Shown: positions 12,389-43,900 of the stretch, in pieces | How positions within the stretch are numbered: the first letter of the stretch is position 1 | Layout: the number at the start of each line of letters is the position of its first letter | Virus record (IMG/VR): IMGVR_UViG_3300008450_000018 | Coordinates: 1-64,000 of that record | Length of the DNA: 64,000 bases | From: a virus | Reading direction: 5' to 3' (one strand) | Translations under genes and position numbers: made by a program | Notes under the pieces: generated by a model | Databases searched by the model: none | The model's input: only the letters and a program-made list of their open reading frames with translations | What the model was told of the DNA's origin: nothing

Positions 12389-12827
12389 CGATTTGTTCTA
12401 CTGAAACTTTACATTTGTTTAAAAATTCAACGCCAGAAGTATCACGATAAGCTTGACCAAAATAAACTTTTTTTATTCCGCTTTGATAAATCAGTTTAGA
12501 ACATTCTATGCACGGTGCATGAGTAATAAACATTGTTGCTCCATCCCCGCTTTCACTACTTCGTGCTAATTTGCTGATGGCGTTCGATTCTGCGTGGATC
12601 ACTTCGGGTTTTGTTTTTAATTCGTAGTCGCCTGTTTTATCCCAAACTTTGTTTTCACAGTTGTTATCCCATCCTGCAGGCATGCCGTTGTAGCCAATGC
12701 TGATAATTCTATCATCTTTAACTACAATTGCACCCACATGCAGTCGACGAGCATGGCTGAGTTCGGCAAATGTTTTTGCAGTCTGCATATATGCTTGTAT
12801 TAATTTTTGTTTCATTTTCTTAGCCAA
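12381..12827 (-). CDS. cd: dCMP deaminase
   Basis: A 148-residue zinc deaminase that converts dCMP to dUMP, the substrate of thymidylate synthase. The zinc site is complete: HAESN (His ligand and catalytic Glu) and PCIECSKLI (two Cys ligands). ARRLHVGAIVVKD and SIGYNGMPAGWDN are typical of the ComEB/T4 Cd family. It lies apart from frd and td, inside the decoration operon, between a sulfotransferase-like gene and a glycosyltransferase-like gene, with 16- and 8-base overlaps. This is the only clear nucleotide-metabolism gene on the minus strand. Confidence 0.94.
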   Translation of the reverse strand: MAKKMKQKLIQAYMQTAKTFAELSHARRLHVGAIVVKDDRIISIGYNGMPAGWDNNCENKVWDKTGDYELKTKPEVIHAESNAISKLARSSESGDGATMFITHAPCIECSKLIYQSGIKKVYFGQAYRDTSGVEFLNKCKVSVEQIDV

Positions 12828-13489
12828 CTTACTTCATCCCAATTATTACCTGTTGGATTAAATTTTGCCACTACTTGAGAATAAAGTTCGATATCTGCAG
12901 CCAAATAGTTTAGTACTTCTTGGTTAGGATTTTCTTCAAACATTTCTTTTATTTTTAATTCCAATGCTTTTTTCTTTTTACTTGATTCATTTGTGTTATT
13001 GACATTTCTAAACATGTGTATGTTATATTTTTTTAATAACATGTCTGTTAATTGAATCACTTGGTCAGGAGAAATAATGTCTATGGGTATCCAGTCAATT
13101 TGATTGCAGTATTTTCCTAAATTTTCTGAGATTGACACGGAATGAAAATCAAGTAACTTAGAATTTAACACTAACTGTTGTAAATTAGAATCTATATAAA
13201 ATTGATTTGCTAGACTGTTTTCATATAACCACTGTGTTATAGCCTTGTATCTTCTAGTCAATGGATCTGATATAAAAGAAAATACACACCCTTCCCAATT
13301 AATTTCATTAAATGTAGTCGGCGGCCATCGATGATTAACTTTAAAAATTTCTCTGAAAAAAGTAGATGCGTTTTTCAACGTAACTATGTACGTTAAAACA
13401 TCACAAGAGTACGTCTCTACGTAAGATCCAGCCCTGGGTTCAAAAGAATTGAACTTGTTTATATCGACAATATAAGGAGTTATGTCCAT
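12812..13489 (-). CDS. Sulfotransferase-like protein
   Basis: A 225-residue protein related to the interrupted gene at 14497-15114 over its whole length. TLKNASTFFREIF (about residue 37) resembles the 5'-phosphosulfate-binding K-x-[AG]-[CS]-T-S loop, and FSFISDPLTRRYKAI (about residue 70) resembles the 3'-phosphate-binding F-[VI]-R-D-P-x-x-R-x-x-S-x element of carbohydrate sulfotransferases, although the first Arg is replaced by Ser. The C-terminus is helical (EEN...DIELYSQVVAKF). The nearby APS kinase would supply its donor PAPS. The acceptor is unknown, and family membership is by motif only. Confidence 0.6.
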   Translation of the reverse strand: MDITPYIVDINKFNSFEPRAGSYVETYSCDVLTYIVTLKNASTFFREIFKVNHRWPPTTFNEINWEGCVFSFISDPLTRRYKAITQWLYENSLANQFYIDSNLQQLVLNSKLLDFHSVSISENLGKYCNQIDWIPIDIISPDQVIQLTDMLLKKYNIHMFRNVNNTNESSKKKKALELKIKEMFEENPNQEVLNYLAADIELYSQVVAKFNPTGNNWDEVSWLRK

Positions 13490-13490
13490 A

Positions 13491-13706
13491 TTAATCTATA
13501 GATATTTGTTTACCCCATTTAATCAAATTCCATACTCTTTCGTGTAGAAAGTATAACAGGGTATTAACAGTTATTTGCAATAACGCAATACTACCAGCAA
13601 TCGAAAAATCACCTGTAATAACGTATGATATTATAAACGTAGCTCCGCTACCAGTCAATCTCCAGCTAATCGTTTTAATAAAACTTCGCTGGATACTGTC
13701 TGTCAT
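13491..13706 (-). CDS. DUF2061 small membrane protein
   Basis: A 71-residue protein with two predicted transmembrane segments: ATFIISYVITGDFSIAGSIA and LLQITVNTLLYFLHERVW. The N-terminal SFIKTISWRLTGS and C-terminal HERVW...WG match DUF2061. This family is small, membrane-bound and often found near sulfate-activation genes. Here it is coupled by a four-base ATGA overlap to the APS kinase fusion. No biochemical function is established; the context points to sulfate or sulfated-product metabolism. Confidence 0.85.
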   Translation of the reverse strand: MTDSIQRSFIKTISWRLTGSGATFIISYVITGDFSIAGSIALLQITVNTLLYFLHERVWNLIKWGKQISID

Positions 13707-14497
13707 TTTAAACCTAGTTCTTTTCTAATTTTAGTAGCACTAATATCAGTAATCGACTCATCGAATGTTTCTTCGCCCGCTGAATATCCCACGCCACGAC
13801 CCCAACCTATATGCACAATATTTGGAACTACTTGTATGTCGTATTGCCCTTGGTATAGTGGATCTAAGTCTCGACGAATAAATGATTTTACTTTTTCTAC
13901 TTCAAAAGGGTTAGACCCTTGCCATCCCTGTACATCACGAACTTGAATCATAACTTGGCCTGTGCGCTGTAGCAGTCTTTCGAATAGTGCGCGGTGACCA
14001 TCATGCCATGGTTGCCAGCGACCCAACATCTGTACTGTTTCTTTTTTCCAATCAAAAGTAGGACGGCGACGATCATCGACGATATGCTCAGCAATAAAAT
14101 CTGCCCACTTGGCAGCGTTCTGTTCGGTAATCCGGAAATCATAAACTTCGGGCTCCACAAACATTTTATTAGTGTCGGCGTAACGACCTTCACGTATAGT
14201 GTCCATCCATACAGTCCAATCTGCTTTAAAATTGTTACGCATTTCGACTAAGGGTGCAACAAAGTCGCACAGTGCATAATCTGTATTACAAGTAGCAGAC
14301 AACTCGGACATACGCTTGCTTTGCCTAATACGCCCTGCTTCGCTGAAATCCCAATCATTGAATTGTTTACGTATTTCATCTGCGTTAAACCAAGTTACAG
14401 TTTTGCCATTTGCTTCTAGCAACTTTTTTAATTCTGTTGCCAAATAAGTTTTTCCTGCACCGGGCAGGCCCATTATTAAAATCTTTGATGCACTCAT
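13703..14497 (-). CDS. Adenylylsulfate kinase / nucleotidyltransferase fusion
   Basis: A 264-residue bifunctional protein. The N-terminal P-loop GLPGAGKTYLA, then NADEIRKQFNDWDFSEAGRI, marks an APS-kinase-like domain, which phosphorylates adenylylsulfate to PAPS. From about residue 150 a cytidylyltransferase-like domain follows with QPWHDGHRALFERLL (HxGH signature) and the C-terminal SATKIRKEL (ISxTxIR-type motif). Some family members may act on other substrates, so PAPS synthesis is likely but not proven. Neighbours fit a sulfation module: DUF2061 downstream and two sulfotransferase-like genes around it. It starts in a TAATG overlap with the upstream interrupted gene. Confidence 0.85.
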   Translation of the reverse strand: MSASKILIMGLPGAGKTYLATELKKLLEANGKTVTWFNADEIRKQFNDWDFSEAGRIRQSKRMSELSATCNTDYALCDFVAPLVEMRNNFKADWTVWMDTIREGRYADTNKMFVEPEVYDFRITEQNAAKWADFIAEHIVDDRRRPTFDWKKETVQMLGRWQPWHDGHRALFERLLQRTGQVMIQVRDVQGWQGSNPFEVEKVKSFIRRDLDPLYQGQYDIQVVPNIVHIGWGRGVGYSAGEETFDESITDISATKIRKELGLK

Positions 14498-15114
14498 TAT
14501 GTTTCCTTTCTTAAGTTTTCAAATAATTCTATATCTTTTCTAAAATAGTCTAAAATATGTGTGTTGTTTTTATTGTCTGTGAATCTTTGTTTTATTTCTC
14601 TTGTTAAAGATTGGCTATCAACCCCTGCTATATTTTTAAATCCTCAATCAAAATTTGTCCATCTAAGTATTTTTTGTGATTGAAGAAATTTGTCTGTGTT
14701 TTCTATAGTTTTATCATAATTGTCATAATCACAGATAATCCATTGAATTTTTGTAATCTTTTCACCTAACATTTCATGATAACTTGCGCTATGATTGTCG
14801 ATATACGGAAGATTTATAATATAATCTCGGAATTCTGCATTTACTCTGAATTCTGTGTGTAAATTGTTACGAATCAACCAATGAGCAATTCCTTTATGCC
14901 TACGTTCAATCGGATCGGCTAAGTGGCTAAAAATTAATTTATTTTCCCAATCTATATCTTTATATTCTATTGGCTCCCATTTCATACCATTTATAAAATT
15001 GTTATAAAATAAAGAAGAAACACATCGATAGTTCCGTAAATAAATTAAATGAGCAGTAGTGCAAGCTTGCCCCAAATTTGAATTTGTTACAACTATTTCA
15101 GCATTAAAGGTCAC
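14497..15114 (-). pseudogene. Sulfotransferase-like gene interrupted by in-frame TGA
   Basis: The first 156 codons encode a protein ending LRWTNFD at TGA 14644-14646. The same frame stays open for another 48 codons, through DIELFENLRKET, to a TAA overlapping the APS-kinase ATG. These codons align with the C-terminus of the intact paralogue at 12812-13489 (TDNKNNTHILDYFRKDIELF against EENPNQEVLNYLAADIELY). So the gene was once about 205 residues. Motifs YLRNYRCVSSLFY and FSHLADPIERRHKG match the donor-binding elements of sulfotransferases. A nonsense mutation, stop readthrough or a sequencing error would all fit; the truncated protein keeps both donor motifs and could still act. Confidence 0.75.
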
Positions 15115-16592
15115 GACAATACTTTTACTCCGTATAATTGTTCAAATCTGTCAGCGTCGACCCGGTCATTGACCATAGGTTCACCCCTAATGTTTAGACT
15201 AGTATTTAATAGCATAGGACAATCTGTGACAATAAACCATTTTTCTAAGAGTTCTCTGATTCCCGATCCGTCCTTGGGCACAGTCTGAACACGACTAGTT
15301 CCATCATGATGCACAATAGCAGGAAATAAGTCAGGACTACGGCAACAAGCGACTGACTGCATATAAGGACTATGATCGAAGCCAGGGGGCATATCAAAAT
15401 ACTCGCTAGCGTATTCTGCCAGAATAACTGGCGCAAAAGGTCTGAACTTTTGTCTACGTTTGATTTCATTTACTCTATCCTTAATATCATTTCCTCTGGG
15501 GTCAGCCAATAAACTACGATTGCCTAATGCTCGCGGGCCGAATTCTGCGCGGCCACTTGCCACACCAACAATACGATCACGCAAAAGAGTATCCAGGGCG
15601 TCATTAACAGGGTAAGAGCCAGGAATAAGATGACCCAGATAAGCATCATTCCAATTAATGCGGCCGCCATAAACAAGAGCAGCGGCACCAAGACTAGACC
15701 CTGCATCCCCGGGATTAGGCATAATCCAAATATTTTCAAAGTATCCTCCTACACAGCTATTAATACTACAGTTAAGAGCAACACCGCCCATGTATACCAG
15801 ATTAGAACTCCAGTTAAAATCTTTTGCTCTACGCATGATATTTAACACTAAATCTTGGGTCAGATCTTGTGCGCTGGCTGCAATGTCCATATCTCCTACG
15901 TAGGACAAATACTTTTGTTCTATGCCCGTATGAAGATTTTCTTTAAATTTAATTTCCCATTCATTGTGCAAAAATTTGGACTTAAATAAATCAGTGAACG
16001 CTGGCACACCATATGCTGCCATACCCATAAGAATATATTCTTCTTCATTGGGTTTAAGACCAACACGTTCTGTCATTGCACTGTAAAACAGTCCTATACT
16101 ATGCGGATATTTTTGACGCCATAATCTTTTATAAACGGCTTTTCCTTGAACGTATTCTGCTGCCCAAATGCTTATTGTATCCCATTCACCAATGGCATCG
16201 ATTACAACCACCGTGGCTTTGTCAAATGGGCTTGTCTGAAACCCTGCAGCCGCGTGGCATAGATGATGATTGTGCGTTGAAATCGGTCCTGGGAAATTAG
16301 AAAATTCTTTGCCTATTTGCCTATTAAGAATCTGTCGAACAGTTAATTTATTCCATTCAACACCTTGACCGCTGTACAGTTGTCTTAACTGTTTATTCCA
16401 TGGTCGTTCATAGTAAGCAACATGGTCAATTCTATAATTAATTATTTCTTTGATTATACCAGGACTTAAATTTGGATCGTTTTTAATTTTACTATAGCGT
16501 TCACTGTGACCCGCATATAATATATTTCCATGATAGTCAATGACACTTAATGCAGCATCATGGAATCCTGCAGATATTCCTAAAATATTCAT
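15111..16592 (-). CDS. NodU/CmcH-family O-carbamoyltransferase
   Basis: A 493-residue enzyme that transfers a carbamoyl group from carbamoyl phosphate, through carbamoyl-adenylate, to a hydroxyl group, usually of a sugar. The N-terminal ASKHA-like fold starts NILGISAGFHDAALSV; the metal site HHLCHAAAGF lies near residue 108; VVIDAIGEWDT follows. The C-terminal YrdC-like half has GVASGRAEFGPRALGNRS and LNTSLNIRGEP. All family hallmarks are present. Members such as NodU, CmcH and TobZ modify Nod factors, cephamycin and aminoglycosides. Here it sits between the radical SAM block and the sulfation genes, with four-base overlaps on both sides. Acceptor unknown. Confidence 0.93.
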   Translation of the reverse strand: MNILGISAGFHDAALSVIDYHGNILYAGHSERYSKIKNDPNLSPGIIKEIINYRIDHVAYYERPWNKQLRQLYSGQGVEWNKLTVRQILNRQIGKEFSNFPGPISTHNHHLCHAAAGFQTSPFDKATVVVIDAIGEWDTISIWAAEYVQGKAVYKRLWRQKYPHSIGLFYSAMTERVGLKPNEEEYILMGMAAYGVPAFTDLFKSKFLHNEWEIKFKENLHTGIEQKYLSYVGDMDIAASAQDLTQDLVLNIMRRAKDFNWSSNLVYMGGVALNCSINSCVGGYFENIWIMPNPGDAGSSLGAAALVYGGRINWNDAYLGHLIPGSYPVNDALDTLLRDRIVGVASGRAEFGPRALGNRSLLADPRGNDIKDRVNEIKRRQKFRPFAPVILAEYASEYFDMPPGFDHSPYMQSVACCRSPDLFPAIVHHDGTSRVQTVPKDGSGIRELLEKWFIVTDCPMLLNTSLNIRGEPMVNDRVDADRFEQLYGVKVLS

Positions 16593-16694: not shown

Positions 16695-17795
16695 TTATTT
16701 ATTGAGTAAACTACTGCTGTAATCGTAACCAGGTTTTAATCTTTCGATTTGTTGATCATAGTAGTCTTTGTCCGACCAAGTATAAGAATAGACAGAGCGT
16801 AAAATGTTTCCCGACCCATCATCGCATTGAATTGAATATATGTCTAAATAACTCGATAGTATGGGCCAAACTTCGCTGTATTTGATCGTACCAAAACTTC
16901 TTTGTAAGTCAACTTGCCCCACTGAATGATATCCGAAATTATATTGATTATCTTCGGGATCGAATCCATTTCGTTCAAGCCATGATTTAAACCCAGACAT
17001 TTCTTTGGTGTACCAAGGGTGAGGCCCATTATAACATACGTCCTGTGCCCATTCGATATCAAACTCGCCGCTGTAGTAACGTAGATGTGTAATAGCATCA
17101 CAGGTTGTCTTGTCGACGTCAACTCCTTTTTCATCTCTATAAACTTCAAACAGTGTTTTGCCAATCTGTGTCCAATGTAAGTAGACTTCCCCGAATTTTC
17201 TATCATACCTTGATTCTTTAAAATTAGTTTTATATGTTGACGGAAATTCGTATCGCGAGGCATTTAGAAATGTAGTGATTTGACTAGGCCTAACCCACTC
17301 AGGCAATGTTGCTTGTTTACGTTGACTCAGCATTAAACTCTCTGCTTCGTGACATAGATTATTCAATTGTCTGATAGCGAATTTAGTTGTATAATCTGCT
17401 TGTTTATAATAATCACTGAGTCCCCACACAGTTCCTTGCAAAATTTCAAAATGGTTATGCAATTTGTTCATTAACTCTTGATTAGGATTTAATGTTTCAG
17501 GATTTCGTAGAGTAAAAGGGTAAAAGTTTTCTTCTATTTTATACTCGCCTTGGAAGAAATCATTTATTACATTCTTGACCCAGAATAGTTCTCTACAAAT
17601 ATATTCTAAATCTCTTTGACTGTCGGGAAATCCCAAGAAGCAAAAGTTTTTTTCCAGATATTTGTGTTGCTGTACAATTTCTTGTAATGCCGTAAACCAT
17701 CGCTGAGCCATTTCATGCTCGTAGACATTGATAATATAGTCTAATGTTTTTGTTTTATCTAACGGATTTCGTAGTGTTATTATTACTTTATTCAA
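16695..17795 (-). CDS. Unknown 366-aa protein of the radical SAM operon
   Basis: A 366-residue soluble protein that I do not recognise. It starts MNKVIITLRNPLDKTKTLDY and is rich in Trp, Tyr and charged residues. Notable segments are FCFLGFPDSQRDLEYICREL (about residue 51), GEVYLHWTQIGKTLFEVYRD (about 206) and SGEFDIEWAQDV (about 248). No P-loop, Rossmann loop, metal cluster or membrane segment is visible. It overlaps the radical SAM gene upstream by 8 bases and so is probably made together with it. It could be a substrate carrier, a structural partner or an enzyme of unknown type. Confidence 0.75.
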   Translation of the reverse strand: MNKVIITLRNPLDKTKTLDYIINVYEHEMAQRWFTALQEIVQQHKYLEKNFCFLGFPDSQRDLEYICRELFWVKNVINDFFQGEYKIEENFYPFTLRNPETLNPNQELMNKLHNHFEILQGTVWGLSDYYKQADYTTKFAIRQLNNLCHEAESLMLSQRKQATLPEWVRPSQITTFLNASRYEFPSTYKTNFKESRYDRKFGEVYLHWTQIGKTLFEVYRDEKGVDVDKTTCDAITHLRYYSGEFDIEWAQDVCYNGPHPWYTKEMSGFKSWLERNGFDPEDNQYNFGYHSVGQVDLQRSFGTIKYSEVWPILSSYLDIYSIQCDDGSGNILRSVYSYTWSDKDYYDQQIERLKPGYDYSSSLLNK

Positions 17796-19080
17796 TTGAA
17801 TTCCACCATTTTAATACTTCAGGTTTTGTTGAGAGTATATCACGCATAGTATAACTATCATTTCGAATTTGTTCAAGTCTTTCGATTCTTGCTTTTCCTT
17901 TACGCAAACCAATTTGATATTCGTTGGGCCATTGTTCCTTAAAGGTGGGTCTAGTTTTTAGTTGGACAAGTATATCCTTTAACGGATTATTACTAGTACC
18001 ACTTATGATTTCGTCTGCCCAAGGATGTAATAATTCCCGGGGAAGAGATAAAGGTGACATAACTATGTCTGGACTAAAACTAAAAATTACTTTCGCGAGA
18101 ATATCGACTTTTTCTTCTTCTGCAAGTCGCTGGATATTAGCAATTTCGAACATGCCGGGCAAAGTGAGCGTAAAGTCAATTCGCATTTGACGTCTGTGAC
18201 TAGCGATTTTAACTCCTTCACGGAAGTTTGCAAGCCAAGAATTGTAGTCAAGGCCTGTTCTAATGTATTCTCCAATTTTTCCTGTGCCGTCGATACTTGC
18301 ACAAATCTGCCAATCACGAAGCCCGCTGAGAATATCATTATAAAGATTGATACCTTTATAATTAATTCTTGATAAGTTTGTATTGTATCTAGCGTAAACA
18401 TTTGGGCCGTCTCCTAATTCTATTATTCTCTGCATGTATCTCCAATGTTGCTCATACATGAGAGGCTCGCCCCCTACCCAATATACTTCTTCGACTCGAT
18501 GCTCTTCGACGGCTTGACTAAACTCTGCCTCAATTTGTGTGTCTTGAAACTGTTCAATTTGTTTTTTGATTTCGGGCTGCATCCAATTATTTTTTGGATC
18601 CGCCCAATTGATCATGTTGTGTTGTCGTTGCTCACTTTCCCAAGCACTGCTTAACATGTCTCCACACATTCGACATTTAAAATTACAAAGATTACTAAAT
18701 CTGTAATCCCAGCTCACAGGCTTCATATCTGTTGAGCCGTCGTGGCAAGTTTTTTCCATTGCTTCATTGTACTTATGACCAAACAATTGATTAAAATAGC
18801 TACGGTAAACATTGGTGTTTAGCAATTTGTCGTTGCATACTTCACACTCTGGCAGAGTTTCGCCGGCCATCATTCGACGCCGAACAGATTTCATATGTTC
18901 ACTATTCCAATGTTCATCTAAATTAATTGGTATATATTTTCCAGTACCAGACTTAGTATCTATGTACTGTTGAAAACTTTGTGCTGGTTCGCGACTTGCA
19001 CAACACATTCTGCGTTCTGTTTGTGGACTCAGATATGTATGTGTCCACGGTGCAAGGCAAAGAGTAAGCGGTTTATTCAT
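17788..19080 (-). CDS. Radical SAM protein 7 (LPW-like class, N-terminal auxiliary cysteines)
   Basis: A 430-residue radical SAM protein, the last of seven in the operon. The cluster loop CNFKCRMC (about residue 130) should bind a [4Fe-4S] cluster and S-adenosylmethionine, followed by SSAW and the GGEP motif (VGGEPLMYEQHW). Before the core lies a cysteine region CLAPW...RMCC...CEVC that resembles a SPASM/twitch-type auxiliary cluster placed at the N-terminus. EYIRTGLDYNSW is shared with its six relatives. The reaction and substrate are unknown; twitch/SPASM enzymes act on sugars or peptides. It overlaps its neighbours by 8 bases on each side. Confidence 0.88.
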   Translation of the reverse strand: MNKPLTLCLAPWTHTYLSPQTERRMCCASREPAQSFQQYIDTKSGTGKYIPINLDEHWNSEHMKSVRRRMMAGETLPECEVCNDKLLNTNVYRSYFNQLFGHKYNEAMEKTCHDGSTDMKPVSWDYRFSNLCNFKCRMCGDMLSSAWESEQRQHNMINWADPKNNWMQPEIKKQIEQFQDTQIEAEFSQAVEEHRVEEVYWVGGEPLMYEQHWRYMQRIIELGDGPNVYARYNTNLSRINYKGINLYNDILSGLRDWQICASIDGTGKIGEYIRTGLDYNSWLANFREGVKIASHRRQMRIDFTLTLPGMFEIANIQRLAEEEKVDILAKVIFSFSPDIVMSPLSLPRELLHPWADEIISGTSNNPLKDILVQLKTRPTFKEQWPNEYQIGLRKGKARIERLEQIRNDSYTMRDILSTKPEVLKWWNSIE

Positions 19081-20278
19081 AGCCCATGGCCTTTGCTATT
19101 TCGGGATGTGTATCCATAAAATTTTGTTTTCGATAAGCATCTGTGCGCTTCATATTGTTTAAAAATATTTGCCCGTCGCTGCCTGCACCGTTTTCGATAA
19201 ATTTAATTACATTTTCAATTTCTTGGTGATGTTCCTCTGTGTTCCAAAAAGTTGTTTTAAGTTTATTCAAAACTAATTCTTTGGCTGCAGGAGTTAACTG
19301 TTGAATACTCATATGGTCTGGGCTGTGCAACATATTAAAATAAATGCTGTCAAAAGGTTTGGTGCTTGCCCAGGCCAGTAATTCATCTAAGTAATATACA
19401 TTTTGAATATTAATAGTGAAACAAAGTTGAGTAGTAATGTTAGGCGTGTCAACGTCACGGGCAAAATGAACTCCGTCGATTATTTCGTTGGCCTTATCCC
19501 AATCTGCCCCGTATCGTTCATATTCAAATCTTTCACCGACATTGTCGATGCTAAATGCAATATCTACACGACCAAAATTATTCCATAAAGCTGATTTTTG
19601 TATGCCTAACCCGTCGATAGTTGCATTGGTATTATAATGAATATCGATATGTTTACTATGGCCTGTTGCTACTGCATATCGTAGTAAATCCCAGTGTTCT
19701 TCGATTAACCAAGGCTCGCCCCCGGTAAATTCAAAATACTTAATATTGGGTAGTAACGATTTTAAATTCTCCCAAAAATTAGGACTCTCCTCTGGCCACT
19801 TACCTTGTTTAAGCCAAGTATATGCAACATGTTTTTTCTTATCATGTCCTTGCGGCAAATACTCTAATTCTTCTGCCGCCCACTTACTACTGCTCCAACT
19901 GCCGCATATCCTGCACTTTAAATTACAAATGTTGCCCAGCTTTAAATCAATGAACCATAATTGATCAGGAACATCGTTTTGCCAATCGACCAATGGGTAT
20001 AACTCTTTGAGTCTAACTTGACTGTGAATACGTTTACTAGTCCTGTTTGCGGCTTCCTCATCCCAGCATAATTTACAGGTATTTGGTTTTTCGCCGCGGC
20101 GGAATTGTCTACGTAAGTTTTGCATATACTCGCTAGTATATGCATCTTGTAATGTATGTCTTCTAAGATCAACACCAGTAATATCTTCTCTTGCAAGACA
20201 ACAAGGTCTTGCAGTACCCATGGGGCTAGTCTCGATACTAATCCATGGCAACATACAAATACTATTAGGTAAAGTCAT
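19073..20278 (-). CDS. Radical SAM protein 6 (LPW class)
   Basis: A 401-residue radical SAM protein. N-terminal cysteines: CMLPWISIE...ARPCCLARE, then CKLC near residue 79. Core loop CNLKCRIC near residue 116, then SSSKW, and TGGEPWLIEEHW. Later SIDNVGERFEYERYGADW carries the shared Y-x-R-x-G-x-D-W signature. The C-terminus is short, so there is probably no second classical C-terminal SPASM domain. ATG coupling (ATGA) to the upstream radical SAM gene and an 8-base overlap with the downstream one suggest equal, co-translated amounts. Substrate unknown. Confidence 0.88.
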   Translation of the reverse strand: MTLPNSICMLPWISIETSPMGTARPCCLAREDITGVDLRRHTLQDAYTSEYMQNLRRQFRRGEKPNTCKLCWDEEAANRTSKRIHSQVRLKELYPLVDWQNDVPDQLWFIDLKLGNICNLKCRICGSWSSSKWAAEELEYLPQGHDKKKHVAYTWLKQGKWPEESPNFWENLKSLLPNIKYFEFTGGEPWLIEEHWDLLRYAVATGHSKHIDIHYNTNATIDGLGIQKSALWNNFGRVDIAFSIDNVGERFEYERYGADWDKANEIIDGVHFARDVDTPNITTQLCFTINIQNVYYLDELLAWASTKPFDSIYFNMLHSPDHMSIQQLTPAAKELVLNKLKTTFWNTEEHHQEIENVIKFIENGAGSDGQIFLNNMKRTDAYRKQNFMDTHPEIAKAMGYE

Positions 20279-21612
20279 TTATTTTTTAACTCGCTTAATT
20301 CAGGAAATGTGTTCCAAAAGTTTTCTCCCCTGAGATTATCAATTAAATTAATTTCTTGTTTAAATTTACCCCAGTGCTGTGAGCCGTCGGTGGACATTAG
20401 GAAATTAATGGCACTCTTGAATCCAGTTGTTGCTCGTTTTAATGGATCTTGCGGTTCTAACCATTCAATATGTCTTTCGTATGCTGGTTTAATTACTCGC
20501 TCTTTAAATTCTTGCGGGAACAAATCAATCCTATACCATTCAGGACTTTGACAAATATTCACATTAAAATCTTTAGGCTTAATAAATCCCATATCAACCC
20601 ATTCTTTATGAAAATCTAAAACGTGCAATACATTCATAGCACTAATAGTAGATGCAATATAAAAATCTACGTGCGGTACTTCTTCCAACATACGTTCACG
20701 ATTGCGAACTGTTTGTTTCCAGTCTGTGCCTTTTCGCATTAGTTCTGCTCTGGCTCCGCTGGCATCTAAGCTGGCTCCTACTCCTACAGTTCTAAAATGT
20801 TTCCAGTATTCGAATACATGTTTATCTTTAAAAGCTAATTCACTAAAATTTGTATTGTATTGAATACAAACGTCTGTTCGTCCTGCTTCAATAAGTTTTT
20901 CTAATAGATAATAGTGTTCCTTCATAATCAAAGGTTCACCGCCTGCAAAATAAACTTGTTCCAAGTAGGGAATATGTTCTTCCATTTGTGCAATCATATA
21001 ATCTTCGTCGCCAGCAGCATATTCAATTCTGGCCAAATCTTTGCCGTTTACGTCAGGCACTCTATTGAATAATTTGACATGATCATTATACCAATTACTG
21101 CTAAAAACCGGGCCGCACGTTCTGCAACGAAAATTACACAAATTGCTAAACCTAACGTCCCAGTATCTGATTTTAAATTCTGGGTGTGTTCCGTCTGGCA
21201 GTGTTTTATCTACGTCTGCAATATTATGTCCGTAACTACGATTAGCATCATAACGCATACTAAAGAATCCGTTTTCTTCTTGTTCATAACATTTGGTACA
21301 TTGTTTAACTGGCTGATCTGCCATCATTAAACGTCTGATCTCTTTGTACCCTTCTTGGTTCCAAACTTCTTGCATTGAATTCTTTTTTAAATTTCCAATT
21401 GGATGAAAGTATTCTGCAAAGCAACAAGGATACACTCTGCCGTCTGGGTAAGCATGTTGGTGAACCCATGGTAACATACAAAAAGATTTACTGTTCGTTA
21501 ATCTGTTGATTTGAGTTTCTGTCAGCGTTGCAGGATCTGCAAATAATGGTTTCCTACTATTGTAATCGTAACCACGTTTATAAAATCTATCAGTTTTTTT
21601 ATCTTCGCTCAT
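20275..21612 (-). CDS. Radical SAM protein 5 (LPW class)
   Basis: A 445-residue radical SAM protein with the clearest N-terminal auxiliary domain of the group: CMLPWVHQHAYPDGRVYPCC, NLKKNSMQEVWNQEG and CTKC, in the order expected of a SPASM-like domain but before the core. Core loop CNFRCRTC near residue 156, SSNW after it, and AGGEPLIMKEHYY. ASLDASGARAELMRKGTDW holds the family signature in degenerate form. Both ends couple to neighbouring radical SAM genes by four-base ATGA overlaps. Reaction unknown. Confidence 0.9.
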   Translation of the reverse strand: MSEDKKTDRFYKRGYDYNSRKPLFADPATLTETQINRLTNSKSFCMLPWVHQHAYPDGRVYPCCFAEYFHPIGNLKKNSMQEVWNQEGYKEIRRLMMADQPVKQCTKCYEQEENGFFSMRYDANRSYGHNIADVDKTLPDGTHPEFKIRYWDVRFSNLCNFRCRTCGPVFSSNWYNDHVKLFNRVPDVNGKDLARIEYAAGDEDYMIAQMEEHIPYLEQVYFAGGEPLIMKEHYYLLEKLIEAGRTDVCIQYNTNFSELAFKDKHVFEYWKHFRTVGVGASLDASGARAELMRKGTDWKQTVRNRERMLEEVPHVDFYIASTISAMNVLHVLDFHKEWVDMGFIKPKDFNVNICQSPEWYRIDLFPQEFKERVIKPAYERHIEWLEPQDPLKRATTGFKSAINFLMSTDGSQHWGKFKQEINLIDNLRGENFWNTFPELSELKNK

Positions 21613-22958
21613 AGTGTATTATACCAATCTGCCAGAGAAGGAAATGTTTTACAGAAGTCTTTACCTCTGCGCTGATCGTACTGTGTGTAAAATTGTTTGA
21701 AATCACTGCGTAATTTAGACAGCTCAAATGCATCGCTGTGTGGAGTTTTTACAACATCCAAGTAATCTATTAATCTCTGTAAATGATTTATTTCATGCTC
21801 ATGTAAATAGTTATGTCCTTTATGGCGAACAAGAAAATTAACCAATTGATCTTTGTATTTTGATTTAATATCATCAGGCAACACCAATGGACTCTGAAAA
21901 CTAGGAAAACGTAAAATATTTAAAGTAAAATTAGGATAGTCTCGGCCGAATTCTTTCTTTAAGTCTATTAGAGTATCTAAGAAATCAGGCAATGTATCCA
22001 GGCATAATGCATTAATTGTACACATAATATGAAGCCCGCGAAACTTTTTACTGTTAACAAGCTTCATAATATTTTCTAACCACAGAGTATAATTTAAACC
22101 ATCTCGTATATATTCTGCTTGAATGTGATCACTTTCGTTGCTAGTATATAAGTCTATTTCTAAACCATCCACGCTGTCAATTAATCTATCGATATCAACT
22201 TGATAACCTAAATTACTGTTAATAGCTAAACGTGTTTGGCTTTTACCTTTATTAGTTTTAAACCAATCGATTAGTTTCCAAGTTTCTCCACTCATCAAAG
22301 GTTCTCCGCCCGTAATACGTAATTCCTTTAATGTGCGATGTAAGTCTGATTCCCACCATTTATGAAATGCTTCAACATAGGGATTAACTTCGCCAAATTT
22401 ATATAGTTGACTATGATCATGAGTATGAGTAAAATGATTCCTGCCGTCACTAACCAATCCTGTATAAGGCCCGTTACGTTTGATGTCATTGACCCATGTA
22501 CTGCTAAAAGCAGGATTGCAATAACTACAAGCAAACTGACAAGTTCTGTCGAAAGCAATTTCAAGAGTTTGAAGATTGAAATCTTCTCTTGCTGGGGTTC
22601 TGTATGCATATGCCAAATCTTCATCATTGTAAATTACAGTTTTGTATACTCGATCGCTTATTGCATCTCGACCCATGTCTTCGATCTTCCAGCAGTACTC
22701 GCAACCTGACGGTCTTTCGCCCTTCTGCATCTGCTCTCGTTCCATTTTCTTTTTTTGAGTATTGTGCAATGCCCTAGGATTTCGTTCAACATCGTCAATG
22801 TCTACTTTGTGCGGCAAGGGATGGTGGCAACTAGTAGTCATTCCGCTACCTAACCATATAGTAGCATTATACCATTTAGCTCCGCAAAAAGAATTTGATT
22901 TAATGTCGATTACTCTGCGTTTGTAATCTAAGTCTGTTTCATTGTTTATTCTTGGCAT
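21609..22958 (-). CDS. Radical SAM protein 4 (AKW class)
   Basis: A 449-residue radical SAM protein of the second subclass. The N-terminus reads CGAKWYNATIWLGSG...SCHHPLPHK, then CEYCWKIED: the LPW and PCC of the other class are replaced by AKW and CHHP, so its auxiliary cluster, if present, has different ligands. Core loop CQFACSYC near residue 135, SSTW, TGGEPLMSGETW, and EYIRDGLNYTLW. It is closely similar in layout to the 25095 gene (LHNTQKKK / LHNTPYKK; C-terminal RRGKDF / RRGTNF), suggesting a duplication. Reaction unknown. Confidence 0.88.
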   Translation of the reverse strand: MPRINNETDLDYKRRVIDIKSNSFCGAKWYNATIWLGSGMTTSCHHPLPHKVDIDDVERNPRALHNTQKKKMEREQMQKGERPSGCEYCWKIEDMGRDAISDRVYKTVIYNDEDLAYAYRTPAREDFNLQTLEIAFDRTCQFACSYCNPAFSSTWVNDIKRNGPYTGLVSDGRNHFTHTHDHSQLYKFGEVNPYVEAFHKWWESDLHRTLKELRITGGEPLMSGETWKLIDWFKTNKGKSQTRLAINSNLGYQVDIDRLIDSVDGLEIDLYTSNESDHIQAEYIRDGLNYTLWLENIMKLVNSKKFRGLHIMCTINALCLDTLPDFLDTLIDLKKEFGRDYPNFTLNILRFPSFQSPLVLPDDIKSKYKDQLVNFLVRHKGHNYLHEHEINHLQRLIDYLDVVKTPHSDAFELSKLRSDFKQFYTQYDQRRGKDFCKTFPSLADWYNTL

Positions 22959-34931: not shown

Positions 34932-37900
34932 TTACCCTTGCAATCCTTGTTTTAAGAAACTTACCTGTAAAGTATTAGCATTAAATAGTCCCTGTCCGTT
35001 GGAAGCTGTGGTATTTCCCAGGACTCCATTGGCATTTGCTTGGGCAGAATTACCTAAATTGTACCAAATATTAGTTTGGGCAAAAGCAACATTGGATTCA
35101 AAAGTATAATACGTAGTAAACCGTTCATCTGTCAGATTCACCAAAGAATTATTACTAATATAAGCAGAAGTATTGCTAATTACGTTACTGATAGTTCCTA
35201 CTATATTTCCGCCATTGTCGTATAAATCATTGCCAACATTCAATTCGGCCAAGAATATAGTACCATTTCCAGTAATAATATTGCTGCTGGTATTTGCTGT
35301 AATATTTCCTGTATATCGAACGGTAACATTAGATATATTTGCAGCTACAAAATACGGTGTATTATTCGCAGAAATATATGCCCATTCGACGGGATTTCCT
35401 TCTGGTACATCTGGATTTCTCTTTGTAACTGCTAATATCGCAACTGTATCACTTACCACATTGTCGATAGTGCCTATCAATTGTTGGCGAGTAAAAGTAG
35501 AACTTGTACTAGAATTTCCTAGAGTCGACTCTACTGCATTTTCGTCCTTTACACCTGCAAATATTTGTGTTCCCGGAGTTAATGTGGTAAATGTGGTGCC
35601 CACACCTTCTAATGTGCTGCTGTAAACATTTACATTAATTGTTCCAGGACCTTGGGATCTGGCGTACCATACACTATCCCCCGAATTAGGTATAATTTGA
35701 TTTTGACTTCCATCTAGTACTATGTTGCCAACAAAATGATTTTTAGCGCCAGTTCCGCCAGTTCCTCTACGAATTCTTCCTAATATATTAGTTGTGTTAT
35801 CCTTAGAGTAATAGGTAATTCTTTCACCATTAATATACACAACTCCAGGTTGGCCCCCGTTAGAAGACGGAGTAGCTAATTTACTGGCATCTACTACTTG
35901 AATTGTAGTGTCTGTCAAACTTAAATTTGCAGCCAATGTAGTGGTACTTGCGCCATCCTCTCTAAGATATGTAAAGTTATCATTCATATCTTTAAAGATT
36001 CTATAAGACATCATTGGCCAAGCATTTCCGCTGGGAGAAATGCTTAGTTTCATTATGGCCGTAGCAATAATTGGCGACGTGTTTGCGCCAGTGATAACCA
36101 CCTGTGGCGTAGTATCATACCCCCCACCATTATTGACAACTTGGAATGATGTTGCAGATCCGTTTGAATTTAATATTACTTGTGCTTGCCCTTGTGTAAA
36201 ATATCCGCCGCCTACTATAGTTACACCAATGTCAGCAGGAGAATATCCACTGCCTGGGTCAATAATTTGTATATAATCAAGTTGAATTCCGCTACCTGTT
36301 GACCAGTTAGTATAATAGCTAACAGTGGGATCTGTTGCTATGGTACTAATCGTCATATCCAGTGTGTCATATACTCTTCCGGGCACCATTTCTTCAGGAG
36401 CATGGCTTGCATATGGTCCTACATTATAAATGGTCAAGTTGGCTGTAGAAAATACATTTCCTGTTGTGGTCGGGGTAACCACATACCATACTTTATCGTT
36501 GTAAGAAATTAAATCGCCTTTGTCATAATATCTATTGGCTTTCCACTCAGTGAAGTAACTATAAACAAAAGGTCCCCCGTCAACAATGATGTCTTCGGGT
36601 TTTGTTCCTAAAGTAATATCATTGAAAGTACTGGTTATTTTAGCATCTAAAATGGCATCACTTAAAATAGGAATTCCGTTTTCGTCAAATTCCAATGGAT
36701 CAAATAGAGTGGCGTCGAATCCGTCGGCAGCACTGATTCCCTCCAATGGGGGTTCAGGACCCGATCCGCCAAATCCTCCGTTGTCACTGAACGTTGGGCC
36801 TTGTACTTTTACCCCGGGATAGTCGATGCCCGATTGTAACAATGACAAATCTTTTCCAGGTTGTCCTAATTCAGGTTGATAATATGCTTGAATTCTGTCA
36901 TTTGCATTATTAATATTATCAATAGGATAAACTGTTAAGTTGACAAGAACATTCGAATTGAATGTTGTGGGTGAAGTAAACGTTTGATTTACAATGTAAG
37001 CAACCCCGTTGTAATCAATGATAGTTCCTTGAGTAAACGTAGTATCTGGTTTCCAATCTACAATTGTAGTAGAATATGTATATCTATCATAAACTAGAGT
37101 AGTTTTAATGTTTCTGACTAATCCGTTGACTAAATTAGCGCGAGCTATCGCGCCTGAACCATTGCCACCTGTTATAGTGATAACCGGGGTAGTAACATAA
37201 TCACTTCCAGGATATAATAATACTATTTTTGTTAGAACTCCGTCAGTGATCAAAGCTCTTGCTACTGCATCATTGCCGTTTCTACTACCTGTAATAGTTA
37301 TTATTGGGGGCAAGGTATAGCCAGAGCCGCCATCTATAATATCTATAGAAGCAATACTATAAGCATAATTAGATAACCAGTTGGCATATTCAGGTTGCTG
37401 TAAAAATCTTGCATCTTGAATAAATTCGCCGCTAGGACTTCTTGTAGTTTTTAATACACTATCGTAAGTTGGTGGAACATCAAAATCAGACACATAACTG
37501 TTATAATTGTCGTACCCTAGATAATCTACTACATATTCTCGGAGTGTAGTTTTATAAGGTTTAACTTCTTCTATGTATTGTTTATAGAATTCTTGATTTT
37601 CTTTGATGTAGATTGCAGGTTGGTTTAGTCCTTGTATCTTTTGTAATACATTAATGAAGCTGGTCTTAAATAACCAATCTACATACTTTTGTTCATCTAG
37701 TATATAGTTAATGAATACAAAAAACAGATTTAAGAATTTAGAATCAAGTTGATCAATAAAAATATCATCTCTAAGAGTTTGTAGAATTTGTCTAGTTTCT
37801 ATTCCAGGATTTTGATCAAATCTTATAGTATCAAAATTATCTGCATCAAACCCGAGACCGAATTCTTCTAGTGCGTAAAGATTTTTCTTAAGTTCAATGG

Positions 37901-40900
37901 TGCCATCTTGAATTCCGACAGTGATCACTGTATTAGGGAATACTTGAATCATGAACCATTTGCCTTGACCATTGTTGTTAATTTTAACCAGATCCTGCGA
38001 TCGCAAAGTTAAATCATTCAATTGAGCACTAGTTTCGATAGTATATGTCGGTTTTACTGTTCTATCAAACCCCCGAGCATACCAATCTTTATATTGCCAG
38101 TATTCACTGGTTGCATAACTCTGTACTCTATTTAAATTCCATTCATTTTGTACTTGATAATAGGTATAGTCGTCAATATTAAATGTTGCACCGGTTGTAA
38201 TAGTTTGATTTACAGTATATGTGATGCTGTTATATCTGACGATTGTATTTGTTAAATACCGAGTATTTGGTTGCCACTCGTCGATCACTCCGTCTTTAAT
38301 ATAGATAGTCCATAAATTATCTACAGAACTGTCATTCTGTACTAATACCTTGTAGCCCATCGGAAGGATTGCGATATTTATGTAGCTTAATTCTTCAAGA
38401 TTAGTTACGACTAAATCATACGCACCAGAATTAGGCACAGGTTCAGGTTCGCCTTCACTTAGTCTGGTTAAATCATATCCTTGACTAATAACATTTAAAT
38501 CGAATATAGAATTAACATAAAGAACCATTTCTCGAATAGCTTCGTTTCTATCGATAAACATGCTTTGTCGAGGTCTGATATCAATTCCGTATCTATTTTG
38601 CACTGCAAGAGTTGGGTCTGGCACAGGATTACCAAATCTGTCAATTCCGCTGGCACTGTCTAATAGCTTATTGTATATGTTCTCTGGAATGTCAGCCGAT
38701 TTATTATTGGTATCTGACAGCAGTGCATATTCATTATGGATAATGTTACTGTTTAATAGTGTTGCATAATCTAAATGAAATATAATATCTCTACCCACTG
38801 CTTCGTTGACCATATTATAAAAAGCAATCGAATCGTCTCTTACTGCGGCAAAGTATTTCACTCCACTGTTCTTAGGAGATGCAATATAACTTGCAACAGT
38901 TGTGGTAGGAATAGTTCTTCCAAATTGATTGGCAGAAACGGTTGTTTTATTTTTTACCCAGAAATAGTATTTTACTGTGGCAAAATTTGTAGCAGGATCT
39001 ATGTAGGTTAATGTTACATATGCACCATTTCCACTGTATTTGGGTTCTCCGTCACCGCCGTTTGCAACATACTGACTAGGAGGATATAAACTTTCTACCC
39101 ATTCGTAGACGTCAATACTGCTGCTAGGGAATACTCGCCCCCAGTTTGTGGTTCTATATTTAATACTACCTTGCTCATAATCAATATACCTGACAGTGCT
39201 TAAATCCCACCACAATTGTCCTACTTGTTGATCAGTCCAATAAAGATTATTATTAACGCTTACATCGTCGGCACTAGCATTATTATAGATAGCAGGATCA
39301 TAATCAATTTTATAAGTAAGTTCCTGTTCAGCCAGTCCAAGAATTTTACCTTTTGCTGGATCGATATAATCTAAGTTATATTGAACTGTTTGTGTTAATG
39401 CATTATAGGTATATGCTTTAATAATACCATTAATATCAACCTTAGGTTCTTGACTTCTGAGTACGTCCCATCCTAATAGATTTGTCGGATTAGCAAACTT
39501 ATAAACTCTTCCACCATTGAATGCTAATTGTTTATTATTCTTAGATCCAACAATTAATTCGTATTTGCTAATAGATATGGCACTACCAAATCCATCATTT
39601 GTTTTTAATCCATCATTTGTAGTTGTAGGAGTTAGCTGTTGTATGAAAGTAAATATACCAGGAGTTTCTATGGTTGATAAGTTATTTGGCAAGTATGAAT
39701 AAATCCAGACTGCGCCGCTATCGTCTACTGGTTCGCTGAAGATTGTCAATTCCCCGTCAAACGTTGTAGGATTTGGTGTATATATTTTAGAGTTATCAAA
39801 AACAGTAGATTGTAGTGTTGCTGCAATATCGCTGGCCACCACTAGTATATCACTGTTGTTGTTTATTTTAACAAGTTTTCCAAAGTAGTCGTATGATTTA
39901 GTTGAATTATTGTAGATAATATCCACTTCTGGAAAAATATCTAGTCCTAAATCTGTAATTGCTGTGCCTACGCCAGGTAACACATTTAATTTATTAAATG
40001 TAACTTCTGAGTCACTAACCAATTTCAATTTATTATTTTCGATACTTGCAGTGACACCAGGAATCTTAGGACCAATGGGTTCACCGAGTGCATTTACATT
40101 ATTGATAGCATTAACTACACTTGACAATGAGGTGTCAGTGAATTGTACGGCATAGTTATTAATTCTAATAGAATCTCCGCTATTTACAGTAGCGTTAGCT
40201 TTAGTTCCTACTATTTCACCGTATACTTTTCCTTGATTCAGGAATCGATATACGGCCCCGTTATATAAATTAACTTCGGACTGATAAGGAGCTCCTATAT
40301 AAAGACTACAACTATTTGTGCATATATCCAAACTATAACCAAATTGTTGATCCGTGAATGGTTGTGCTGGCACTGTCGTTTGTATCGGATGGAATACATT
40401 GGTTTCTATAGTTAATATTTTACTTTGCCCAGGTGGATTGTAAAATGTTATTAGATTTAGCGTACTATTACTGACATACCAATCTACTCCAACAAATTTT
40501 TCTATATTGTCGACGTACACTCTTGTGTATTGTGTGACTGTGGCTACTGCATTAAAAGTAACAGTAAGATTATCTTGTACAATAAAATTATTAATCGATC
40601 TATTCCACAAATGCACTGCGCCGGAATCTGTATATGTTGTAATATTACCACCGATATTAGCAGTTACATCTTCCAATGGTGCACCAATCATAATCTGTGA
40701 TCCGTCAACTGTTGCACTCAAACTATAACCAAATTGACTACCCGCATTACCTGCTATTGTTCCTACTAAATTATATCCTGGTCTTTGTGAAATAACTATA
40801 GTTCCTGCAGGTGGAGGCAATGTGAATGAAATCGTTGAAGAGCTTAAAGTATAATCTCTATAAGGAACATATGTGGCCGAAGATCCCTGAACATAAATGG

Positions 40901-43900
40901 TTTCTGCACTCACTGGGACATACGGTAGAGTAAATGAACTAACTGATCCGTTCGGAGTTAATGTTACCACTTCTTGTTCAGGCACGGTATTATCGTACCC
41001 ATATATGTAAACAATGTCATCATCTGGCGCGCCAATATATAACCAGTTATCATCTGCGCTAATAGCAATACTAGTTCCAAAACTTCCTACGTTAGCACTA
41101 ATCGGCGATAATATTTGTGTGTCAGATAATGTTCCGACATTTTCTCTATTATATACAAAAACATAACCAATACCGTTACTACTCTCCGGAGCTCCAGTTA
41201 TTACTTTGGTGTTTCCGCTTTCGATAACAGAACCCATCTTAACTGTGGCATTTGCACTAGAAGTAAGAGTCACATCCTCTACTAATACTCCATTAAAATT
41301 AATAACGTAGTTAGTAATAGCACCAACATTGCCATTATATCCGGGTTGTCCAATCACTGCAAAATTATCATCAGTTGCAAGATTTACCGCGGCACCAAAT
41401 TGGAAATTATTTTCCAAAGTTCCTTTTTGTAATGCTGTGGTCAATCTCCACGGATCTGTCTTGTTGTAAACGGCCCAGTCTCCTGCAGAGTTATAGGAAT
41501 TTACCCATACTTTATTGTTAACACTCCATCCAAGTCTAGGAGTCAAATTTGTGATCCCAAGAGGACTATCAACTTTCATGCTGATCAATTTATATAATTG
41601 ACCAGTCTGATTAAACGTACTAAATCCACGAAGATCTCCGGTAAATTCAACTATAAAACTAGTTAATCCGGTAACATTTTGTACTTTATAAAATCCAGTA
41701 AATTTGTCTACTCCGGTTAATAAAATAGTATCATTTTTTACCAACCCGTGAGATTTATTTGTGTTTATTTTAACCTTTGTATTCAGGTCATTACTTAAAC
41801 TTATAACACTGCACTCAGAGTCTGACACTCTGTATACGTTCCAATTTTGTTGATAATCTTTTGCTATCCAAATTGTTGATCCGGCAGTTATATTAGATAT
41901 GTCTGCATTTAATGTAGAAACGTTGGTTAAATCAAATAACGTAAAGTCAATATCATCAATGCTAACATAACCCGCAGTTCGAATATCATCGCTATAATCG
42001 CTGTCAACGGTTCTGTTTATTAAAAAAGGCGATGACCACGGAACTGAACTGGTTTTATACAATCCCTGATTGTCAGTGTACAGAGAACTAAACAACACAG
42101 AATTATTAGATCGAACTTCTAAGCTAGTTGGGTTACTCAATAAATATTTTTCCTCAAGCACCAGTTCTAAAAATTGGTTAGTTCCAGTGCTACCATAAGA
42201 ACCAACTCTAAACGCCCAGTCTTCACTGACTGTTACATCGCTGGGACGTCCGCTAAAGCTAACTTTACCCAACGCATTAATTGCATTTAATGTTCCTTTT
42301 TCTTTAATGAACCCTTGATAAAATTTAACTTGACTGGTATCATCTAGTCCCAAATCATTTAAATAACTTCTATCTCTGTAACCAATTAATCCCAATGCGT
42401 ATCGATCAAATTCGCTTTCTAAGTTAACTTTATCAACATTATAAAATGTCTCGCCTATTCCTGCGTTACGTGCAAAATTATTCAAAAGACCTGTTTTAAT
42501 TTTATTTCTATCGACTGGCAACCAATCACTGAATTTGAATTCAGTTGTGCCCGGTAAATTTTTACTGGCTGTGTAATAAAAGCTCTTATACTCGACCAAG
42601 TCTCCTTGTAAATAATCTTTATTCGGTCTCCAAGCAGCAACACCTGGTTGATTATAAACGAATCCCAGTGCAGATAATGTCCCGGTCCACTCACCCGTCT
42701 TAGAACCTATAAGTTTTAACCGATATTGACGTTGCCCCATTATGGGATCGTAAATAATATCATTAAACTGTGTTCTATTATCAAAAATTAAAACATGTTC
42801 ATATTGTACTAAATTAAGATCTACATATCCTATTAGGTCTGTGGTGCTAGTCAAAGATAAAACAAATGTATTGTTATCCCGGGCTACGGTATAGTTGTCT
42901 GTATTCAAAACTTTATAATTTTGATTTAATACTTTTGTGCCATAAAATGAATTATTGATTCCGTCAACTACGGCAGTAGTATTAAATAATTTTAAATTAT
43001 TAGAAGCAGGACTTAGAACAATAACACTGTTAATTGTCCACCCCTGTTGCGTCCAAAATAAAAATTCTTTAGTGCTTAATTGCCAATTTTTAATTTGAGC
43101 CAACGTTTCGTCATAGTAATCAAATTTAAATCCTTGTAATTGAAGGTATCGTTCATATCCACTGATAAAGTTTGCAACTTGTTGTAGTGTAGTTAATTCG
43201 GTGCCGTAAGGGATATTAATTTTAAAATTTGTAAACTCAGTGTAGTAATTTACAGTTCGCTTTTCTGACTTAACTAATTGATACTCTCCAGTCTGGGCAG
43301 GTGGCACAATTGTAAAATACGGTCTCTCATTGTCGTAGCCTGAGATAGTAAAACCATTTCCAGTTTTTTCTATTATTACTGCACTATATCTAGAATTAAA
43401 CACTGGAGTAGATTTATGTAGCGTTAGATTATAGTTGTCATCGGGGACAATAATAGTTTCGTTGGTGCTATTTGGACTATTTTGTTCAGCTAATATCTTT
43501 AAATAATTTTTGCCGCTGAACCCTGCCATTCTATAAGACAATTGAATAGAATAGTCCCTAACAAAATTTAACAATGGAGTTTTGTCTGTTGCTCCACGAG
43601 TTACTTGATAATCACTGATCCAGTTCAAATATCCTGAAGCTCTAGATATATCTCCTGACAAGTTTACATATCCATTGACATCAATGTCTTCTTGTGTAAT
43701 TCTATTATTTGTGCCCGTTATTAAATATTGATCTAAATCGACATTATATCTATATTTGCTTGTTGTAATACCGTAAGCAAAATATTTTCCAGGATTAATT
43801 ATTGCAGAGGTGTATTGCACTGCAAAAGGATACTCACTACTATTTCTCCAAGCAGTTTCAACTGGGCTGAACTGACCCATATTCCAATTATCATTGAACT

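Follow-up and report, generated by a model that had tools for sequence, protein, structure and literature searches.

A phage fusion of APS-kinase-like and NadM-like domains is a candidate compact PAPS synthetase beside putative sulfotransferase genes

Animal PAPS synthetases (PAPSS1/2) are proteins of about 620 aa in which an APS kinase is followed by an ATP sulfurylase of the HxGH type. The phage protein described here shares this domain order, an APS-kinase-like domain and then an HxGH-type nucleotidyltransferase (NT), but it has 264 aa instead of about 620. Its NT domain (~117 aa) has NadM as its nearest relative and fits no Sat model. A VIA comparison aligned 251 residues of the fusion model, spread over both domains of 1x6v, with an rmsd of 20.9, so the domain arrangement differs between the two proteins. 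Viral cysC genes have been reported in viromes (for example PMC9611531). The passages on cysC in that paper treat it as a lone sulfate-assimilation kinase and mention no NT domain, and the main text does not contain the word sulfotransferase. Judging by titles, we found no description of this compact PAPS synthetase in the open-licence PMC literature, and nothing to the point there on PAPS synthetase in bacteriophages, DUF2061 together with APS kinase, sulfotransferases of phages, SAR86 sulfotransferase or ATP sulfurylase, Pelagibacter, or a novel sulfurylase family. The new element is most likely an NT domain that acts as an ATP sulfurylase: it would work like Sat without being a member of Sat.

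The window, a stretch of 64,000 nucleotides, comes from a virus record (G000) of 81,631 bases. The record has genes for baseplate and virion proteins, for thymidylate synthase and for dihydrofolate reductase. Given the virion and baseplate genes, the source is a phage. The genes of the locus lie on the minus strand within 2.3 kb (Table 1). A preliminary description had read them as a sulfation module of four genes; the fusion and the DUF2061 gene proved genuine, whereas the two transferase calls are weak. We rejected a chance grouping: the fusion and its neighbours stand in the same order in loci L002–L007, and the series fusion, DUF2061, sulfotransferase is repeated in L190 and L320.

Table 1. 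Features of the locus and their positions in the window.
Feature	Positions	Strand	Basis
Whole kinase/NT fusion, 264 aa	13703-14497	-	ORF
N-terminal APS-kinase-like domain, residues 1-144 of the fusion	14066..14497	-	PF01583, AF2 model, VIA
C-terminal NadM-like NT domain, a proposed ATP sulfurylase; residues 148-264, stop included	13703..14056	-	Conserved stretches, PDB profile search
DUF2061 small membrane protein, 71 aa	13491..13706	-	PF09834
Putative sulfotransferase A, 225 aa	12812..13489	-	Best-scoring ORF of the window with a viral Sulfotransfer_2 profile; L190 counterpart
Putative sulfotransferase B, 156 aa, in-frame TGA relative to L002	14644..15114	-	Likeness to A

We compared the kinase domain with known families. 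PF01583 (APS_kinase) scored 42.9 bits on the fusion, over the Pfam gathering cut-off of 21.1, whereas the apsK equivalog TIGR00455 scored 33.6 bits against a curated cut-off of 138.7. The AF2 model of the fusion had a pLDDT of 88.5. The best VIA match of residues 1–144 was an APS kinase (Z 18.6, rmsd 2.1, 142 aligned residues); the first 30 rows, with Z from 18.6 to 15.7, were all APS kinases or larger enzymes holding such a domain, and the next family was gluconate kinase (Z 14.9). In the model, the kinase part is an APS-kinase fold. It is like CysC in its PF01583 score and its fold, and unlike CysC in missing the apsK equivalog cut-off.

The NT domain was harder to place. PF01467 gave 14.7 bits, under the Pfam cut-off of 21, and the best NCBIfam matches were NMN adenylyltransferases, all far under their cut-offs (NadM TIGR01527, 24.3 bits against a curated 181.2). 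By profile, NadM chains were the top PDB matches (E 2.8e-8); the VIA list for the fusion model barely tested this domain. Four stretches, GRxQPxHxGH, RD, GR[GD]VGY and ISATxxR, were invariant or nearly so in 25 aligned NT domains. Likeness to NadM lies in GRxQPxHxGH and the NPF stretches. However, the NT domain is shorter, has RD where NadM has GS, carries GR[GD]VGY before ISATxxR and reached no curated NadM cut-off. The Sat proteins compared carry QTRN or HTRN, GRDHAG and ISGT stretches, and GR[GD]VGY resembles GRDHAG by eye; in a profile comparison of NT with Sat, only the ISxT stretch aligned (21 columns, probability 23%). By these tests, the NT domain is a shortened NadM-like domain outside the Sat and NadM families. 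The APS kinase-like/nucleotidyltransferase fusion named in the preliminary description is thus borne out, with PF01583 over its cut-off and a genuine, if sub-threshold, NT domain. Its statement that an ATP sulfurylase is absent also held: the ten window proteins scanned gave no match, and for the fusion the Sat-type family PF01747 was not among the best 25 of 29 families (E≤1).

We consider it rather probable that the fusion acts as a compact PAPS synthetase. In the ATP sulfurylase step, the NT domain would convert ATP and sulfate to APS; the N-terminal kinase would then turn APS into PAPS, and the sulfotransferases encoded beside the fusion would use PAPS to sulfate an acceptor during infection, to a presumed benefit of the phage. 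DUF2061 would be an accessory membrane protein. A wider reading, which we favour with slightly less confidence, is that the NT domain represents a third kind of ATP sulfurylase, one that is neither CysDN nor Sat and has a NadM-like fold in shortened form. Paired or fused with APS kinase, it would form a minimal PAPS synthetase, which would supply all SAR86 sulfation and would be found in hundreds of aquatic phages with exchangeable sulfotransferases. Judged from sequence comparisons, a role in sulfation is supported, with most of the support coming from relatives and less from the window.

The fusion is widespread and conserved. A pattern scan of 2.9 million viral contigs found at least 518 relatives, the best 80 of which were 73–94% identical to the fusion. 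Its dN/dS was 0.03–0.05 in six of eight comparisons, with dS saturated in the other two; the fusion is under purifying selection. Among genomes representing 84,980 species of bacteria and archaea, a profile scan detected 344 relatives. Of these, 80 were kept; they came mostly from SAR11, where the domains are fused, and SAR86, where they are two overlapping ORFs, with a few from SAR116, Rhizobium and others. The relatives in SAR11 and SAR86 are chromosomal genes. Three loci labelled Euryarchaeota or Bacteroidetes (L104, L089, L090) carry SAR11-like or phage-like genes and are probably binning errors. In GenBank, five phages, of Stenotrophomonas, Xanthomonas and Clavibacter, encode homologues that are 36–40% identical across 97% or more of the length. 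In these phages (L083–L087) the gene has other surroundings, which in some of them include an adjacent NADAR gene and a MazG-like gene close by. Stenotrophomonas phage Bhz60 has its NADAR-domain gene directly before the homologue, and no sulfotransferase is annotated nearby.

We wondered which other sulfate-activation genes accompany the pair in cells. Among 99 SAR86-family genomes, 87 had the kinase/NT pair and 94 had Sulfotransfer_3 over cut-off. CysD was over cut-off in none (one weak match), and Sat was found in none. Eleven of the 12 genomes without a pair match still had Sulfotransfer_3, their completeness not being given. We also searched a closed SAR86 chromosome (CP097973.1, 1,325,892 bp) by tblastn at E≤1, with E. 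coli Cys proteins and others as queries. The chromosome had the pair, two Sulfotransfer_3 matches and a CysQ match (38.6% over 233 aa, E 3e-40). CysC, CysD and Sat gave no match at this threshold, CysH and CysI only short fragments (E>0.1) and CysN only partial matches of 29–30%, as expected from translational GTPases. This chromosome thus has sulfotransferases and a PAP-recycling enzyme while CysC, CysD and Sat are unmatched, so that, apart from the pair, no known route to APS or PAPS is left. From these gene contents, the pair seems to be the sole candidate PAPS source in SAR86. NadD was over cut-off in none of the 99 genomes either. Two SAR86 loci (L218, 1486–2604; L216, 1489–2595) encode a CinA-like domain, recognized by eye, joined to a nucleotidyltransferase that carries the stretch ISST; such proteins are possible NaMN adenylyltransferases where NadD is not detected.

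An alphaproteobacterial genome, G151, places the pair in a sulfate-assimilation context. A single minus-strand run encodes CobA (276.9 bits, cut-off 198), CysI (707.8, 457), CysH (251.9, 154), DUF2061, kinase and NT, so that the pair sits where ATP sulfurylase and APS kinase are expected. G151 also carries CysQ. A Sat homologue (E 1e-74) lies elsewhere in the same genome, in what by eye is a glycan gene cluster. Across 50 genomes with relatives, Sat was present in four and CysD in one, Rhizobium BK376; in the SAR11 genomes among them, Sulfotransfer_3 was mostly weak or absent. None of the viral or genomic loci kept from the relatives scans had CysH or CysI near the pair. By eye, the Sat homologues of SAR11-like genomes in L171, L172, L173 and L254 lie among glycan-type or unrelated genes, not sulfur genes, and in L173 a small APS-kinase-like ORF directly precedes Sat.

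Linkage to sulfotransferases was also seen from the other side. In Rhizobium sp. BK376, a single 555-aa ORF combines PF03567 (2.9e-7), PF01583 (1.2e-14) and PF01467 (1.7e-4). Our search found 326 viral Sulfotransfer_2-like proteins, of which 80 were kept. A kinase lay within 3 kb in 21 of these 80 loci (16 with NT, 5 without NT; one, L288, is the query's own contig); the only background for this count is the 518 pattern-found relatives in 2.9 million contigs, a lower bound. After clustering, linkage was found in 8 of 42 clusters at 90% identity and 4 of 28 at 50%. In L302, the fusion's stop overlaps the sulfotransferase start, and L320 has the order fusion, DUF2061, sulfotransferase. Seen from the fusion, 6 of 81 viral loci had a Sulfotransfer_2 profile match. 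Three viral neighbours (L016, L012, L038) are sulfotransferase-like by eye only and were therefore left uncounted: in Pfam, L012 had no match, L016 none of relevance and L038 one at E 0.091, and PDB sequence searches with L016 and L038 returned no sulfotransferase. In L293, L295, L321, L322 and L339, a kinase without NT directly precedes the Sulfotransfer_2-like gene, a natural test of whether NT is dispensable.

Within the window, sulfotransferase profiles had been proposed as a check on ORFs A and B. Neither matched PF03567, PF13469, PF00685 or any other Pfam family at E≤1, and PHROG and NCBIfam gave no match. A profile built from the 80 viral Sulfotransfer_2-like proteins ranked A first (9.9 bits, E 0.002 among window ORFs) and B third (3.9 bits, E 0.13). 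The claim of two sulfotransferase-like proteins thus has these weak scores in its favour and no library match, and is unproven for the window. A PDB search with a profile of A returned no sulfotransferase, an hhalign profile comparison for A gave a probability of 4% (E 0.01), and the AF2 model of A (pLDDT 52.6) was unusable for fold. By tblastn, A had no match in GenBank phages, and scanning viral contigs with the single sequence gave no relative; a profile scan found seven. L190 encodes a distant homologue of A (32–35%) in the same place, after the fusion and DUF2061, and a scan with that protein found only itself. The counterparts of A in L002–L007 are 43–47% identical beside a fusion that is 92–94% identical, so the gene is either exchanged or fast evolving. 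B is a paralogue of A, 32% identical to it over 127 aa. The L002 homologue of B has 206 aa; the window copy, shortened by the in-frame TGA, is probably broken. That A is a sulfotransferase we hold to be fairly likely.

The 71-aa DUF2061 membrane protein was confirmed (PF09834, 78 bits, cut-off 23.1). Among 81 viral loci, 38 had DUF2061 no more than 600 bp from the fusion; among 80 genomic loci, only 3 did. The preliminary description had made DUF2061 a frequent companion of sulfate activation. We surveyed 17 DUF2061 loci from 13 of 76 alphaproteobacterial genomes. Of the 15 inspected, only L191 and L198 were sulfate-linked by eye, L198 with DUF2061 fused to a CysN-like protein. Thus, DUF2061 is not specific to sulfation.

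Some findings count against a compact PAPS synthetase: the nearest named relatives of NT are NMN adenylyltransferases, 11 SAR86-family genomes have Sulfotransfer_3 and no detected pair, and G151 has a Sat homologue. The same goes for the profile comparison of NT with Sat, for Sat in four of 50 genomes and CysD in Rhizobium BK376, for the mostly weak or absent Sulfotransfer_3 in SAR11, for the kept loci without CysH or CysI near the pair, and for the weak scores of the window's own sulfotransferases. The preliminary description held that the kinase is an APS kinase, that NT has no obvious place in sulfation and may activate another group, and that APS must come from the host. The five viral loci with a kinase alone directly before a sulfotransferase gene fit this alternative, and so do Sat in G151 and in four of 50 genomes and the NadM-like character of NT. 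However, SAR86 keeps both proteins as a pair without Sat or CysD, and G151 keeps kinase and NT behind CysH and CysI. A host origin of APS is probably wrong, with the pair as the only candidate PAPS source in SAR86; given the SAR86 pair and the G151 run, so probably is an NT domain without a place in sulfation. We consider this alternative unlikely as a whole.

It is quite improbable that the protein serves NAD salvage as NadR does, with the kinase converting nicotinamide riboside to NMN and NT adding AMP. The kinase is closest to APS kinases and then to gluconate kinase, the genes are linked to sulfotransferases and to CysH/CysI, and the CinA-like/nucleotidyltransferase protein of the closed SAR86 genome could serve NAD; on the other side stand the closeness of NT to NadM, the NADAR-domain gene before the Bhz60 homologue and the lack of NadD over cut-off in the SAR86 family, which makes a missing adenylyltransferase conceivable. 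The pair might also activate another anion. During the synthesis of methyl phosphoramidate capsules, a CDP-linked group is the substrate phosphorylated by a CysC-like kinase. Together with a nucleotidyltransferase, such a kinase can serve a donor other than sulfate, and glycan-type genes for an aminotransferase and a carbamoyltransferase are near in the window. The CysH/CysI gene run in G151, CysQ in SAR86 and G151, and the Sulfotransfer_2/3 partners make this highly improbable.

If the fusion is indeed a compact PAPS synthetase, it belongs to an overlooked enzyme class in sulfate activation, and SAR86, a common group of bacteria in the ocean, would depend on the pair for sulfation. Annotation as 'cysC' or 'NMN adenylyltransferase' would miss the enzyme, and sulfation in SAR86, other streamlined marine bacteria and their phages would thus have been invisible so far. 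It would also offer a small enzyme to try for making PAPS, and what these phages sulfate would be a directly testable question.

The window holds further genes of note. The glycan-type aminotransferase and carbamoyltransferase genes lie close to the locus. Positions 17788–22958 encode four radical SAM proteins in neighbouring overlapping genes, with NF033640 (N_Twi_rSAM) over cut-off, apparently a modification pathway; these genes lie near a NodU-like carbamoyltransferase gene (15111–16592) and are kept at least partly in L002–L007. Farther along, positions 34932–48953 form a single ORF of 4673 aa.
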